Source: Rhizobium sp. FKY42
GTDB taxonomy: Bacteria; Pseudomonadota; Alphaproteobacteria; Rhizobiales; Rhizobiaceae
Assembly: GCF_005222835.1 (NCBI RefSeq)
Contig: NZ_STGA01000029.1
Span: forward strand, 1-64,000
Direction of reading: 5' to 3'
DNA length: 64,000 nt
Shown here piece after piece: positions 47,751 through 64,000 of this stretch. The position numbers and the translations under genes were made by a program. Below the pieces are notes generated by a model. It saw nothing but the letters and a program-made list of their open reading frames with translations, searched no databases and was not told the origin of the DNA. Each line of letters begins with the position of its first letter. Positions within the stretch are counted from its first letter, which is position 1.

Positions 47751-50700
47751 CTACACGACGAGTTCGACGTCCAGGACCCCAGGTGCGGTTTTCAGCGCCG
47801 CGGCAATTTCCGGGGAGATGCGGTACTTCTCCATCAGTTCAACCTCGATTTCCCGCTTGCCATCATCCTTCACGACCACGAACGATACAAGGCCGTCTCC
47901 TCTTGCATTCAGGTGCTTCACGATCGATCTCAAAGGGCTTGAATCCTTGACGTAAACGCGAAGCGCCTTCTGCATCTGGATCGACATCTCCTCCAGGGAC
48001 TGAACCGTCTGGATACGGAGCCCAATTCCTTCCGGTCGCTCGTCCGCCTGCACCGTAATGACCAGCGATTTTCCCGGCTCCAGCAGATCGCGATACTGGT
48101 TTAAGGCTTCGGAAAACAACACGGCCTCGAACTGGCCGGTCGCGTCCGAAAACGTAACGATCCCCATCTTGTTCCCGGTGCGCGTCTTCCGCTCCTGCCG
48201 CGCGGTAACCGTACCCGCAAGCCTGCCAGCCCCTGCCCCGGCCTTCACGGCAGCGGAGAACTCCGCAAAATTCTGAACACGCATCTTTGCCAACACCTGC
48301 GCGTAGGTATCCAGCGGATGTGCAGATAGATAAAATCCGAGCACCTGATATTCGCGCAGCAGCTTTTCAGACGCCGTCCAAGGATCAAACGCAGGGAGAA
48401 TGAGCTTCTCTGGTCCCGCTGCAGAGGACGCGCCAAACATATCGTGCTGACCGCTGGTTTTGCCTTCAGCCGCCCGCTGCGCATAGCCAATGATCCGATC
48501 CAAGCCGCCAACCAGCTCTGCACGATCCTTGCCGAAACAATCGAAGGCCCCGGCGAAGATCAGGCTTTCGAGAACGCGCCGGTTAACCTGCTTCGGATCG
48601 ATACGCAGGCAGAAATCCTCCAGGCTGCTGAACGGCTTCTCACCACGCACAGCGACGATGTGTTCGACAGCGGCTTCGCCGACACCCTTTATTGCAGCCA
48701 GCGAGTAAAAGATGCAATTGTCACCTGTCTCGAACATGCGGAACGAGGTCTGAACGGACGGCGGAACAACCTTGATACCGAGGCGCTGAGCATCCTGCCG
48801 GAAATCATTCAGCTTCTCCGTATTGGCCATATCATAGGTCATTGATGCGGCGAGAAACTCCACCGGATAATGAGCCTTCATATATGCCGTTTGATAGGAG
48901 ACGATGGCATAGGCTGCGGCGTGCGACTTGTTGAAGCCGTAATTGGCGAACTTGGCCAGTAGATCGAAAATAAGATCTGCCTGCGGTTTGGAAACCTCGT
49001 TCTTGATGGCGCCCTGGACAAAGCGTTCGCGCTGCTTGTCCATTTCCTCCTTGATCTTCTTGCCCATTGCGCGGCGCAGCAGATCAGCCTCTCCAAGCGA
49101 GTAACCGGAAAGAACCTGAGCGATCTGCATGACCTGCTCCTGGTAAACGATAACGCCTTGCGTTTCCTTCAGCAGGAAATCGATCTTGGGGTGAATGGAT
49201 TCAATTTCTTCTTCGCCATGTTTGCGCGCATTGTAGACTGGAATGTTTTCCATCGGTCCCGGTCGGTAAAGCGCGACCAGAGCAATGATGTCTTCGATAC
49301 AGTCCGGTCGCATGCCCAGAAGGGCCTTGCGCATGCCGACACTTTCCACCTGAAACACGCCGATGGTTTCGCCGCGCGACAGCATGTCGTAAGTCTTCTT
49401 GTCATCGAGCGGAATCGTGGCCAGATCGACATGGATGTTCCGTTTGGCGACGAAATCAACGGCCGTCTTCAGAACGGTCAGCGTTTTCAAGCCAAGGAAG
49501 TCGAACTTTACGAGTCCGGCCTGCTCCACCCATTTCATGTTGAACTGGGTGACCGGCATGTCCGAACGCGGATCTCGATACATCGGCACGAGTTTCGAAA
49601 GCGGCCTGTCGCCGATCACGATACCCGCGGCATGAGTCGACGCATGGCGATAGAGGCCTTCGATCTTCTGCGCAATATCCAGCAGCCGGCCAACGACTGG
49701 CTCCTTCTCAGCCTCTTCCCTCAGTCGGGGCTCTTCCTCAATGGCCTTGGAAAGCGGTGTCGGATTCGCTGGATTGTTGGGCACCAGCTTGCAGATCTTG
49801 TCGACCTGACCATAAGGCATCTCGAGAACACGCCCAACATCGCGCAATGCAGCACGCGCTTGAAGCGAGCCGAACGTGATGATCTGCGCCACCTGCTCGC
49901 GGCCATACTTCTGCTGGACGTAGCGAATGACCTCTTCACGTCGATCCTGACAGAAATCGATATCGAAGTCGGGCATGGAAACGCGTTCCGGATTCAGGAA
50001 GCGCTCAAAAAGCAGCGAGAACCGGAGTGGGTCCACGTCCGTGATGGTCAGCGCATAGGCCACCAGCGAACCTGCACCGGAGCCGCGGCCGGGGCCAACC
50101 GGGATGTCATGTTGCTTGGCCCACTTGATGAAGTCAGAAACGATCAGGAAGTAACCTGGGAACCTCATCCTCTCGATAACTGACAGTTCGAAATCGAGGC
50201 GTTCGCGATAATCCTGTTCGGTATAACCGGCGGCCATTCCGAGCGCCGCAATACGCGCTTCGAGTCCCTCCACGGACTGGCGACGCAGTTCCGCCGCCTC
50301 TGCGCGCTCCGCCTCCTCCGCATCGCTGGCACCTCCGGTAAAGCGGGGAAGAATGGGCTTTCTCGTTTTCAGAACGAAAGAGCAGCGGCGCGCAATCTCG
50401 ATCGTATTTTCAAGCGCTTCAGGGAGATCCGCAAACAAGGTCTGCATTTCAGCACGGCTTTTCAGGCAGTGATCCGGCGTCAGGCGGAAGCGCGTATCAT
50501 CCGACACAATAGCATTATGGGCAACCGCCATCAGGGCATCGTGAGCGTCGTATTCGGCCTTGGACGGAAAAAACGCCTCGTTTGTCGCGACCAGCGGAAG
50601 ATCATGGGCATAGGCAAGTTCCACCAGCTTTCGTTCATGCAGCCTGCTATAACCGGTGTGCCGCTGCAACTCGACATAGAGCCTATCGCCGAACACCGCC

Positions 50701-51248
50701 TTCAATCGAAGCAATCGTTGCTCAGCCTGAGAGCTGTGCCCTTCTTTCAGCAGTGGATCGATGGGCCCCGAACTGAAACCGGTCAGCGCAATGATACCGT
50801 CCGCGCCTCCCTCCTCAAGCCACGACATCCGGATGTGAACCGCATGCCCCCCTTCACCACCGAGATAGGCGCGGCTGACGAGGTCGACCAGTCGTTCATA
50901 GCCAACCGCATTCGCCGCAAGCAGAACGATCGATGGAAGTTTGACGAATCCTCCGTTGCCACCCCGCTTTTCGTCGCCCTGATCCTCCATATCGATGGAC
51001 ATCTGACAGCCGATGATAGGTTGGATGCCGTCACCGGTAGCCTTCTCTGCAAACTCAAGCGCCACGAAGAGGTTGTTCGTGTCGGTAATCGCGATCGCGG
51101 GCTGATTGTCCGCGCTCGCTTTGGCCAGAATTTTCTTGAGCGGCAGGGCTCCCTCCAGCAGGGAGTAAGCCGAGTGCACACGCAGATGAACAAAACCTGG
51201 CGATACCGCCGTTTCTGCTGTCGCTGTGTCGTGAACCTGATCTGCCAT
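47751..51248 (-). CDS. dnaE: DNA polymerase III alpha subunit
   Basis: 1165 residues, the replicative polymerase. The PHP domain begins FVHLRVHSAYSLLEGALPL. The palm contains the metal-binding aspartates in PDFDIDFCQDRREEVI, with GPGRGSGAGSLVAYAL and the finger FNKSHAAAYAIVSYQTAYMK. The C-terminal part has an OB domain (VTARQERKTRTGNKMG) and tau-binding end. It is the DnaE1 form, since the length and PHP/OB layout differ from the shorter error-prone DnaE2. ATG 51248 has a modest AGG site. It lies 105 nt downstream of the LexA-boxed small gene with no terminator visible between. Confidence 0.97.
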   Translation of the reverse strand: MADQVHDTATAETAVSPGFVHLRVHSAYSLLEGALPLKKILAKASADNQPAIAITDTNNLFVALEFAEKATGDGIQPIIGCQMSIDMEDQGDEKRGGNGGFVKLPSIVLLAANAVGYERLVDLVSRAYLGGEGGHAVHIRMSWLEEGGADGIIALTGFSSGPIDPLLKEGHSSQAEQRLLRLKAVFGDRLYVELQRHTGYSRLHERKLVELAYAHDLPLVATNEAFFPSKAEYDAHDALMAVAHNAIVSDDTRFRLTPDHCLKSRAEMQTLFADLPEALENTIEIARRCSFVLKTRKPILPRFTGGASDAEEAERAEAAELRRQSVEGLEARIAALGMAAGYTEQDYRERLDFELSVIERMRFPGYFLIVSDFIKWAKQHDIPVGPGRGSGAGSLVAYALTITDVDPLRFSLLFERFLNPERVSMPDFDIDFCQDRREEVIRYVQQKYGREQVAQIITFGSLQARAALRDVGRVLEMPYGQVDKICKLVPNNPANPTPLSKAIEEEPRLREEAEKEPVVGRLLDIAQKIEGLYRHASTHAAGIVIGDRPLSKLVPMYRDPRSDMPVTQFNMKWVEQAGLVKFDFLGLKTLTVLKTAVDFVAKRNIHVDLATIPLDDKKTYDMLSRGETIGVFQVESVGMRKALLGMRPDCIEDIIALVALYRPGPMENIPVYNARKHGEEEIESIHPKIDFLLKETQGVIVYQEQVMQIAQVLSGYSLGEADLLRRAMGKKIKEEMDKQRERFVQGAIKNEVSKPQADLIFDLLAKFANYGFNKSHAAAYAIVSYQTAYMKAHYPVEFLAASMTYDMANTEKLNDFRQDAQRLGIKVVPPSVQTSFRMFETGDNCIFYSLAAIKGVGEAAVEHIVAVRGEKPFSSLEDFCLRIDPKQVNRRVLESLIFAGAFDCFGKDRAELVGGLDRIIGYAQRAAEGKTSGQHDMFGASSAAGPEKLILPAFDPWTASEKLLREYQVLGFYLSAHPLDTYAQVLAKMRVQNFAEFSAAVKAGAGAGRLAGTVTARQERKTRTGNKMGIVTFSDATGQFEAVLFSEALNQYRDLLEPGKSLVITVQADERPEGIGLRIQTVQSLEEMSIQMQKALRVYVKDSSPLRSIVKHLNARGDGLVSFVVVKDDGKREIEVELMEKYRISPEIAAALKTAPGVLDVELVV

Positions 51249-51353
51249 TTACCTGCCGTTCTGCCTCAAATAGTCTCCTCCCAATTGTCGGCCGAACGGT
51301 CCCCAAAGTCCAGCAATGGAGTGACCAATCAACTGGAAAACGGCGTTCATTCC

Positions 51354-51440
51354 TTACATGGACAAGACAATGACGCAGAGGCTGGCGAGGAAAGTCATCA
51401 TAGAGGCAAATGCAGCAACATCCCGGAGCAAGTCAGTCAT
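51354..51440 (-). CDS. 28-residue membrane peptide under LexA control (SidA-like candidate)
   Basis: ATG 51440 follows AAGGAGAG with 6-nt spacing; the frame ends at TAA 51356-51354. The peptide begins MTDLLRDVAAFASMM and continues TFLASLCVIVLSM: a charged N-terminus and one hydrophobic helix of about 21 residues (7-28). Two perfect LexA-type boxes lie 33 and 63 nt upstream, and a TTGACG/CAAATT promoter fits between and over them. Size, single helix and SOS boxes match SidA, the 29-residue Caulobacter division inhibitor. Sequence homology to SidA was not established. Coding status is inferred; dnaE follows on the same strand. Confidence 0.7.
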   Translation of the reverse strand: MTDLLRDVAAFASMMTFLASLCVIVLSM

Positions 51441-51467
51441 CACGCTCTCCTTTTCCGTTATGTTTTT

Positions 51468-51496
51468 AATTTGTTCTTTTTTTGTTCCTTCGTCAA
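51468..51496 (-). promoter_or_regulatory. Promoter of the small LexA-controlled gene
   Basis: Minus strand -35 TTGACG (51496-51491), a 17-nt spacer, -10 CAAATT (51473-51468). The proximal LexA box covers the spacer and touches the -10; the distal box sits just before the -35. Bound LexA would block polymerase at both ends. Confidence 0.6.
51473..51487 (-). promoter_or_regulatory. LexA box (proximal)
   Basis: GTTC-N7-GTTC on the plus strand (51473-51476 and 51484-51487; spacer of seven T), the direct-repeat SOS operator of alphaproteobacteria; GAAC-N7-GAAC on the gene's strand. 33 nt upstream of the small membrane-peptide start. Confidence 0.8.
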
Positions 51497-51502
51497 TAAG
51501 CA

Positions 51503-51517
51503 GAACATTCGCAGAAC
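51503..51517 (-). promoter_or_regulatory. LexA box (distal)
   Basis: GAAC-N7-GAAC on the plus strand (51503-51506 and 51514-51517), that is GTTC-TGCGAAT-GTTC on the minus strand. A second perfect alphaproteobacterial SOS operator, two helical turns or so beyond the first and immediately upstream of the -35. Confidence 0.8.
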
Positions 51518-51669
51518 GCTTTTATTGAATAAATTATGATGAGCGCGATGCCCTGCCCGCTTCATCATGATGTGGCGCTAGCAGCATGGATACAGCGCCT
51601 GTCAGCTCCGCCTAAGCGAGCAGGCAGATCGGCTAACGGCAAAATTATGGGGAGCGCTTGGCAGAACGA

Positions 51670-52353
51670 CTAAAACTCCCGGATCTTGCCGCCTTCAATG
51701 GTGACGCGCCGATCCATCCGGCCTGCGAGTTCGTGATTATGCGTTGCGATCAAGGCAGCAAGCCCGGACTGCCGCACGAGCGCTTCCAGAGCATCGAAGA
51801 CGTAGGAAGCCGTCTCCGGATCAAGATTTCCCGTTGGCTCATCCGCAAGAAGAATCAGTGGCGCATTGGCAACAGCACGCGCAATCGCCACACGCTGCTG
51901 CTCACCTCCGGACAACTCTGCGGGCCGATGATCTGCGCGGTGGCCGATTCGCATATAGTCCAGCAGTTGCGCGGCCCTTTCCTTGGCTTCCTTCCGCGAA
52001 AGCCCGGAAATCAACTGCGGCATCATGATATTTTCGAGCGCCGAAAATTCCGGCAGAAGATGGTGAAACTGGTAGACGAATCCTATGTCGCCGCGGCGAA
52101 TGGCCGTGCGCCTGTCGTCCGGCAATCCGCCACATGCTTCCCCATTAACGTATATCTCGCCTCCATCGGGATGCTCGAGAAGGCCCGCCAGATGCAGCAA
52201 TGTCGACTTACCGGTTCCTGACGGTGCGACAAGCGCCACGATCTCTCCAGCACGCAATTCGAAATCTGCTTCCTTGAGGATCGAGAGAACCTGCTCGCCC
52301 TGACCGTATTGACGGTCCACTGCAGCGAGCTTGAGAACGGTCTTTCGCGCCAT
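51670..52353 (-). CDS. lolD: Lipoprotein-releasing ABC transporter ATP-binding protein
   Basis: 227 residues of a MacB/LolD-type ATPase: Walker [12 protein letters not shown], signature [14 protein letters not shown], Walker [14 protein letters not shown], and the H-loop THNHELA. It powers LolC/E to release outer-membrane lipoproteins from the inner membrane to LolA. ATG 52353 lies 9 nt after lolC on the same strand, one operon. 316 nt separate its stop from the small LexA-controlled gene start region's end; the stretch 51518-51669 holds no recognised feature. Confidence 0.95.
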
Positions 52354-62081: not shown

Positions 62082-64000
62082 TAGAGGGAACTCCCGAGCA
62101 TCATCCAGGTGACGAGCGCAGCAATGCCGATGAGCATCGCGAACGCATAATGATAAAGATAACCGGACTGAAGCCGGACAACACCGCGCGTCACATCCAT
62201 GACGCGTGCCGCGATGCCGTTAGGACCATAGGCATCGATGATACCTACATCGCCGCGCTTCCAGAGGAAACGACCAAGCGCCTTGGCAGAACGGACAAAG
62301 AGCAGATCATAGAGTTCGTCGAAGTACCACTTGTTCAGCAGGAACTGATAGAGAACCCTGTGCTGCTCGGCGAGACGCTTCGGTGTTTCCGGCGACTTGA
62401 TGTACATGAACCAAGCCGTAACGAAACCCGTCAGCATTGCAACGAATGGGCTCCACTTCACCCAAAGCGGCACATGGTGAAACTCTTCGAGAATCTCATT
62501 CGTCGGCAGTGTGAACAGCGCGCCCTTCCAGAACTCTTTGTACTCGTGCCCGAAGAAGTACCCTTCGAAGACGACACCCGCCAGGACCGCACCAACCGTC
62601 AAGAAGGCCAGGGGCAAAAGCATGACAAGCGGCGACTCATGGACATGGTGCATCACATCCGAGGAAGCGCGCGGCTTTCCAAAGAATGTGAGAAACGCCA
62701 GACGCCACGAATAAAAGCTCGTGAACAAAGCGGCAACGACAAGGAGTGTGAAAGCGAAGCCTGAAACTGCGGAATGCGAGGCAAAGGCCGATTCAATGAT
62801 GACATCCTTGGAGAAGAAACCGGCGAAACCGATCATCGTCCCCGGGATACCAACCCCCGTTAGAGCCAAGGTACCGATCGTCATGGCCCAGAATGTGTAC
62901 GGAATATGCTTCCTCAGCCCGCCCATGTAACGCATGTCCTGCTCGCCATCCACAGCGTGGATCACAGAACCGGCGCCCAAGAAAAGAAGGGCCTTGAAGA
63001 AGGCGTGTGTGAAGAGATGGAACACAGCAGCACCATAGGCACCGACACCCAGCGCAACGAACATGTAGCCAAGCTGCGAGCAGGTCGAATAGGCAATGAC
63101 ACGCTTGATGTCATTCTGAACGAGACCAACCGTTGCCGCGAAGAACGCCGTAATCGCGCCGATGATCGTGACAACCGTCAAAGCATCTGGCGAAAGTTCG
63201 AAAATCGGCGACATACGAGCAACGAGGAAAACGCCAGCGGTCACCATGGTAGCCGCATGGATCAGCGCCGAAACAGGTGTCGGCCCCTCCATGGCATCTG
63301 GAAGCCATGTGTGAAGTAGAAACTGCGCGGATTTACCCATCGCGCCCATGAAAAGAAGCAGGCAGACACCCGTCAGTGCATCCGCTTTGTCCAGATGCAT
63401 GCCGAACAGGTTGATGACTGCCTGGCTGGCATCTGCCGAGCCTGCAGCCGGAAGATAGGTCGGCGCCGTTGCGAAAATGGTCTCAAAGTTGATGGATTCG
63501 AACAGTACGAAAACACCGGAAATCCCGAGTACAAAACCGAAATCGCCGACGCGGTTGACGATGAACGCCTTCATGGCGGCTGCAGAAGCAGAAGGCTTTT
63601 TGAACCAGAATCCGATCAGCAAGTAGGAAGCCAGACCAACACCTTCCCAACCAAAGAACATCTGAGCCAAGTTGTCAGACGTCACCAGCATGAGCATCGC
63701 AAAGGTGAACAAGGAGAGGTAGGCGAAGAAACGCGGCCGATGCGGATCGTGGTGCATATATCCAATTGAATAGATATGCACGAGCGTCGAAACGGAATTC
63801 ACGACTACGAACATGACCACGGTCAGCGTATCAATCCGGAAGGCCCATTCGAAATCAAGACCTCCGGACTGAATCCAACGCAGCACAGTCACTTTGATCA
63901 TCTCATGGCCTTCGCCATGAGCAAGCCCGACCTTGAAGAATACGATCCAGGACAAAATCGCGGCGACGATCATCAAACCGCTTGTGACGTATTCAGAAGC
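62081..64000 (-). CDS. nuoL: NADH-quinone oxidoreductase subunit L, partial (N-terminus missing)
   Basis: 639 residues in the window; the frame is open to base 64000 (reads [12 protein letters not shown]... from the edge), so roughly 20-30 N-terminal residues lie outside. About 15 TM helices. The signatures are [41 protein letters not shown], and [13 protein letters not shown], plus the amphipathic lateral helix near the C-terminus unique to NuoL. It is the distal proton-pumping subunit of complex I. A start at 63976 would be artificial. Confidence 0.97.

Follow-up and report, generated by a model that had tools for sequence, protein, structure and literature searches.

A SidA-like peptide gene behind LexA boxes as a candidate SOS division checkpoint of rhizobia

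By what factor is division held back in rhizobia during DNA damage? Among the papers listed in a literature survey, no description of such a factor was found. The question is raised here by a short open reading frame between a LolD-like ABC ATPase gene and dnaE, in a stretch of 64,000 nucleotides from Rhizobium sp. FKY42 (contig NZ_STGA01000029.1; hereafter, the window). A sequence-only reading of the window, made without database searches, had proposed that this frame encodes a SidA-type membrane peptide under LexA control. We examined this proposal by comparing the locus with its counterparts in the same genus, family, order and class, in the Caulobacteraceae, and in phage and plasmid records.

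The locus and its promoter

The frame consists of 28 codons and encodes MTDLLRDVAAFASMMTFLASLCVIVLSM. It lies on the same strand as its two neighbours, and its stop codon is 105 nt from the ATG of dnaE, with no terminator-like site listed within 51200-51700, a range that includes this gap. The best NCBIfam match of the upstream neighbour is LolD (TIGR02211), with 256 bits, under the cut-off of 307.75. The peptide has a short, charged N-terminus (R6-D7), and residues 8-28 are uncharged, with a GRAVY of 2.2; that is, by hydropathy calculation it reads as one hydrophobic helix. The ribosome-binding motif, the hydrophobic frame, and the distance to dnaE without an evident terminator had all been described in the sequence-only reading, and are borne out. 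The gene was missed by annotation.

Two perfect GTTC-N7-GTTC LexA boxes, placed as that reading had them, stand in opposite orientations 47 and 77 nt upstream of the gene. They had been described as bracketing a TTGACG-N17-CAAATT promoter. The boxes do flank the -35 element, but the start-proximal one lies inside the -35/-10 spacer and has one base in common with the -10. The -10 agrees with TATAAT at three of six positions, and the promoter is absent from the output of a sigma-70 consensus scan; TTGAC is kept in 40/40 same-genus loci. The window holds five perfect boxes, versus a mean of 2.4 in shuffles, and the other three are located inside long ORFs, namely dnaE, the gene for NADH-quinone oxidoreductase subunit L, and a 415-codon ORF of a hypothetical-protein family. 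The match in the subunit L gene (62342-62356, minus strand) is most likely due to chance. Under a local Markov model, the probability of at least one box in 120 nt is 0.0019, and two boxes in one 120-nt stretch occurred in 0 of 20,000 simulated stretches. LexA is encoded in the same genome, and a perfect box stands some 60 nt ahead of the inferred start of lexA itself, which supports GTTC-N7-GTTC as the operator in this organism. The peptide gene thus carries at its promoter the GTTC-N7-GTTC operator that marks alphaproteobacterial SOS genes.

Table 1. Features of the window locus and positions of the phage relatives
Feature	Position	Strand	Remarks
SidA-like gene for a 28-residue peptide with one predicted helix	51354..51440 (including stop codon)	minus	ATG at 51440, stop 51356-51354; translation and conservation
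AAGGAG ribosome-binding site	51447..51452	minus	6 nt ahead of the ATG
Promoter TTGACG-N17-CAAATT	51468..51496	minus	TTGACG 51496-51491, CAAATT 51473-51468
Proximal LexA box GAAC-AAAAAAA-GAAC	51473..51487	minus	perfect; within -35/-10 spacer; position conserved
Distal LexA box GTTC-TGCGAAT-GTTC	51503..51517	minus	perfect; upstream of -35; genus promoter block
dnaE, DNA polymerase III alpha, downstream neighbour	47751..51248	minus	
LolD-like ABC ATPase gene, upstream neighbour common to Caulobacteraceae	51670..52353	minus	NCBIfam match and synteny
IMG/VR phage relative, L393	831-881	minus	
IMG/VR phage relative, L394	9582-9632	plus	
IMG/VR phage relative, L395	9706-9749	plus	
IMG/VR phage relative, L396	2460-2503	minus	

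Conservation of the peptide and its relationship to SidA

The peptide gene is present in all 40 same-genus genomes searched, the source genome included. Thirty-six unique sequences from these loci were compared, two 36-residue versions, a duplicate and a sequence containing an ambiguous base having been set aside. Read in frame, they give a pN/pS of 0.244, versus 1.69 and 4.51 for the other two frames. pN is smaller than pS in 630/630 pairs, although loci of one genus share descent and these counts are not independent. When column order was shuffled 60 times, pN/pS had a mean of 0.98 and a minimum of 0.575. The variable columns number 15, 6 and 27 of 27 at codon positions 1, 2 and 3. A chance ORF is rejected by the presence in 40/40 genomes and by pN/pS; with high confidence, the frame is a gene under purifying selection. 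The frame is kept in relatives with changes biased towards synonymous sites, as the sequence-only reading would have it for a real gene. In two same-genus genomes (L004 and L056), the peptide is extended to 36 residues by a GPGGVPTF tail.

In the family, a search with the peptide profile A1 gave matches in 114 of 121 genomes at E<=0.1, and in 111 once three genomes with matches only between E 0.05 and 0.1 were counted as absent. Among these 111 copies, 71 are upstream of dnaE (120 dnaE loci in all) and 40, in other genomes, are elsewhere. A contig-end duplicate (L354), an extra-copy duplicate (L381) and a locus without a real match (L387) were dropped from the counts, and for the one genome with two copies (G047) the box-bearing copy was taken as primary, though the other scored slightly better. 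Across the 28-residue family copies, residue 7 is Asp in 93/94 and residue 17 is Phe in 94/94. Ten of the 121 genomes lack the gene by this profile, seven of them being no larger than 2.0 Mb. LexA is over its model cut-off in seven of the ten and without a match in three. Thus, some genomes that bear LexA, most of them small, can do without the gene, and loss of LexA is rejected as the only cause of its absence. Of ten gene-bearing genomes checked, one has only a weak LexA match.

For the comparison with SidA, named Caulobacteraceae genomes were located; 31 of the 80 named loci kept were taken forward, and dnaE was located in 30 of them. Each of the 30 has a frame of 29-30 residues 75-122 nt before the inferred dnaE start, with a perfect LexA box in 15 and a box with one mismatch in the other 15. 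The peptide encoded there in Caulobacter vibrioides OR37 matches NCBIfam NF033228 (cell division inhibitor SidA) with 72.7 bits, the cut-off being 35. In agreement with this, sidA of Caulobacter is CCNA_02004 (PMC10769358) and the first dnaE is CC1926 (PMC1839093).

The rhizobial and Caulobacteraceae alignments match with an hhalign probability of 77.5, ungapped from residue 1, and with a score above that of 600/600 shuffled controls. The residues in register are M1, R6, D/E7, A10, S13, F17 and C22. Relatives from the order bridge both sets, with probabilities of 97.5 to the rhizobial set and 84.2 to SidA. The Rhizobiales profile ranks the SidA frame first in 30/30 Caulobacteraceae loci (567 candidate ORFs), and in these loci no other frame matches under E 0.05. 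The reverse search is weak: the SidA profile A3 puts the peptide frame first in 88 of 133 loci, a redundant set of 40 genus, 71 family and 22 order loci, with a best E of 0.011 and E<0.05 in five; no other frame in the 133 loci falls below E 0.05. Because A3 was built from ten of the Caulobacteraceae peptides, its own result of 30/30 is partly circular; the NCBIfam match and the Rhizobiales-profile matches to Caulobacteraceae SidA are not. NF033228, with its curated cut-off of 35 bits, gives no match to the window peptide at E<=10 and one weak match (E 0.038) among 48 relatives. It is over cut-off in 0/150 order genomes, with 21 sub-cut-off matches at E<=0.1; four controls give matches, Caulobacter vibrioides among them, and one of the four is over cut-off.

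Like SidA of Caulobacter, which has 29 residues, the 28-residue window peptide reads, by hydropathy, as one hydrophobic helix, and its gene has a LexA box and lies between a LolD-like gene and dnaE. The box, where perfect, is 31-64 nt upstream in Caulobacteraceae, compared with 47 and 77 nt in the window. Unlike SidA, the rhizobial peptide lacks the W19-M20 pair that is invariant in ten aligned Caulobacteraceae peptides, has another C-terminus and goes undetected by NF033228; the window also has two boxes, and some family copies have a triple half-site or lie away from dnaE, as detailed below. From the in-register alignment, the boxes and the place before dnaE shared with Caulobacteraceae SidA, we conclude, with high confidence as to homology, that the rhizobial peptide is a SidA lineage, related by common descent and too diverged for the NCBI model. 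The SidA-type peptide proposed in the sequence-only reading is upheld, and homology to SidA by register and by locus, with the LolD-like gene upstream and dnaE downstream, takes that proposal further.

TisB is the comparison for an SOS-induced membrane toxin and is similar in size. A peptide of that type would depolarise the membrane, and slow growth or make persisters, with no specific target in the divisome. The size, the predicted single uncharged helix and the LexA boxes are all compatible with such a toxin. The near-invariance of D7 and F17 and the homology to SidA argue against it, however, and we regard it as unlikely.

The LexA box and the peptide gene

A perfect box is found within 120 nt upstream of 102/111 family copies, where 0.005 would be expected for each such interval. 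These are 64/71 of the copies at dnaE and 38/40 of those elsewhere; with up to one mismatch allowed, the numbers rise to 108/111 (69/71 and 39/40). The commonest offset is -48. The remaining sequence of the same loci, 218,412 nt, has 11 perfect boxes. dnaE loci without the peptide gene have a perfect box in 0/49, in stretches of up to 900 nt (one covered only about 350 nt upstream), and extra copies of the gene in other contexts have one in 0/10. In the genus of the window, the box is perfect in 14/40 loci and has one mismatch in the other 26, and the aligned promoters have the boxes in place, many with one decayed half-site. Upstream of 18/111 family copies is a triple half-site, GAAC-N7-GAAC-N7-GAAC, i.e., two overlapping LexA boxes in one register. 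The sequence-only reading had looked to conservation of the boxes together with the ORF, and this is what the family copies display. These comparisons lead us to conclude, with high confidence as to the operator, that the LexA box belongs to the peptide gene and not to dnaE.

The LolD-like gene is upstream, on the same strand, of 44/71 family copies at dnaE, of 26/40 elsewhere, and in 18/30 Caulobacteraceae stretches, these counts being limited by stretch length. Since 26 of the 40 copies away from dnaE lie directly behind it, the peptide gene often stays with that neighbour.

Translation ahead of dnaE has been reported in another rhizobium. Hadjeras et al. (2023) describe sORF25, a novel translated sORF detected by Ribo-seq in the 5'-UTR of dnaE1 of S. 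meliloti 2011 (PMC10117765), and the main text of that paper mentions neither SidA nor LexA. In S. meliloti Ak57, a 28-residue frame, MADFVRDLAAFASMSLFIVSISVIALGL, is found at the same dnaE position, with perfect GAAC-N7-GAAC boxes; the PLSDB table, which is incomplete, lists no gene there. sORF25 is probably the rhizobial SidA-like gene. The match is one of position, and other short frames are also present in the Ak57 stretch, so that the identity is no more than probable. The earlier statement that no rhizobial gene of this kind had been described is therefore to be amended, in that sORF25, probably this gene, was reported as translated; its connection to SidA and LexA was not part of that account. 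No description of a SidA homologue in Rhizobiales appeared among the mostly open-access papers listed in the survey, a limited negative. One 3.7-Mb S. meliloti record labelled pSymB (CP090106.1, L391) has dnaE and proline--tRNA ligase, and its label looks swapped with that of the chromosome.

An ORF at this position might instead be a leader peptide or upstream ORF that regulates dnaE by translation, its amino-acid sequence mattering only thereby. Hadjeras et al. suggest a possible uORF role for sORFs located in 5'-UTRs (PMC10117765), and in the 71 family loci the peptide gene lies 67-647 nt ahead of dnaE (median 158, approximate). This explanation is very improbable, however, as the peptide itself is under purifying selection, and 40/111 family copies are not beside dnaE, of which 38 are still boxed. 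That the boxes serve dnaE as an SOS-induced replicative polymerase, with the ORF incidental, is favoured by the lack of a listed terminator-like site between the two, but is rejected by the ORF-less dnaE loci, 0/49 of which have a perfect box in the stretch covered (up to 900 nt), and by the box following the ORF elsewhere. The suggestion that SOS induction could raise dnaE transcription as well is possible for the window, but is not a conserved property, given the boxed copies away from dnaE.

Proposed function and relatives in phages

We assign a probability of roughly three in four to the reading that the rhizobial SidA lineage is a LexA-repressed, damage-induced membrane peptide that holds the septal synthase inactive. 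In undamaged cells, LexA on the two boxes flanking the -35 would keep the promoter shut. Upon DNA damage, RecA would trigger LexA self-cleavage, and transcription would begin about 20 nt before the gene, judging by promoter geometry. The 28-residue product, with its short charged N-terminus (R6-D7), would then enter the inner membrane as a single helix. There it would keep the FtsW/FtsI/FtsN septal synthase inactive for as long as repair is under way, in the manner of SidA in Caulobacter (PMC4211646, PMC12700426). Where the peptide gene precedes dnaE, transcription may also run on into dnaE as a side effect. In Caulobacter, filamentation of a lexA mutant is due to sidA (PMC12700426). The chain known for SidA, from damage through LexA cleavage and the peptide to inactive FtsW/I/N, is the most economical reading for the rhizobial peptide. 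The peptide probably arrests rhizobial division in the presence of DNA damage; our confidence in a divisome mechanism with FtsW/FtsN as the target is moderate.

SosA and SulA are proteins unrelated to SidA. Together with YneA, they are SOS-induced division inhibitors (PMC13396833, PMC6851548, PMC4211646), and yneA and sidA are likewise unrelated (PMC4211646). DidA of Caulobacter is a small membrane inhibitor of division that acts on FtsW/I/N, as we infer for the rhizobial peptide, but it is SOS-independent and driven by DriD (PMC4211646), whereas the rhizobial gene lies behind LexA boxes.

Beyond the family, the peptide is found in 22 of 28 order loci, with a perfect box in 19 of the 22; these loci are the 28 best-scoring new ones among 147 genomes in which dnaE matched, two being family members, and the counts are not frequencies. 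Of the 22 peptides, 12 have a length of 32 residues, and the second half of 16 contains W-x-[DEN]. In the class, matches under E 0.005 came from five of 29 further loci; all five have a perfect box upstream, and one is from the same order. Here too the 29 loci are the best-scoring ones among 278 matching genomes, some belong to the same order, and they do not give frequencies. The rhizobial profile detects only 3/289 class genomes, the source genome included. Pfam and PDB searches with the peptide returned nothing, and a PHROGs search returned one weak match (E 0.0081), to a phage membrane protein. Against plasmid records, the window peptide matched five chromosome-sized records (E 0.6, 54% identity over the full length), the best named matches being Sinorhizobium and Shinella.

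Four IMG/VR contigs encode 32-residue peptides of the MRDLL[EH]DI type (Table 1); in none of the four do the 200 nt upstream contain a perfect LexA box. An exonuclease VIII frame (phrog_412) lies 0.6-1.2 kb downstream of the peptide in 4/4, followed by a RecT-like gene (phrog_561) in both contigs tested. Two prophage-like regions (L348 and L374) also encode 32-residue relatives of this type without a perfect box upstream; L348 and the IMG/VR relative L395 lie in contigs of equal length and may be one sequence. Extra boxless copies, L161:701-790 (+) and L376:1035-1121 (-), lie beside an ArdA antirestriction gene (PF07275) and a DUF5131/phrog_2045 gene, neighbours that suggest mobile-element contexts. 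Searches by tblastn with a mobile copy, one for phage records and one for plasmid records, gave no match. These relatives suggest that phages exploit the same division brake. A broader scenario, which we hold to be evenly balanced, is that SidA would not be peculiar to Caulobacter. At least two alphaproteobacterial orders would have it as their ancestral SOS checkpoint of division, overlooked because the gene is too short and too diverged to annotate, and rhizobial temperate phages would have acquired it as a division blocker that has no box, is timed by the phage and stands immediately before their recombination genes.

The gene is thus known in kind and new in place: a conserved, unannotated candidate for an SOS checkpoint of rhizobia, which extends SidA to a second order. 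In the diverse alignment of the SidA lineage, residues R6-D7, A10, S13 and F17 stand out as being of interest in the complex with FtsW. The lineage probably explains an orphan sORF seen by Ribo-seq, and provides a candidate division brake for Rhizobium-like bacteria and S. meliloti.
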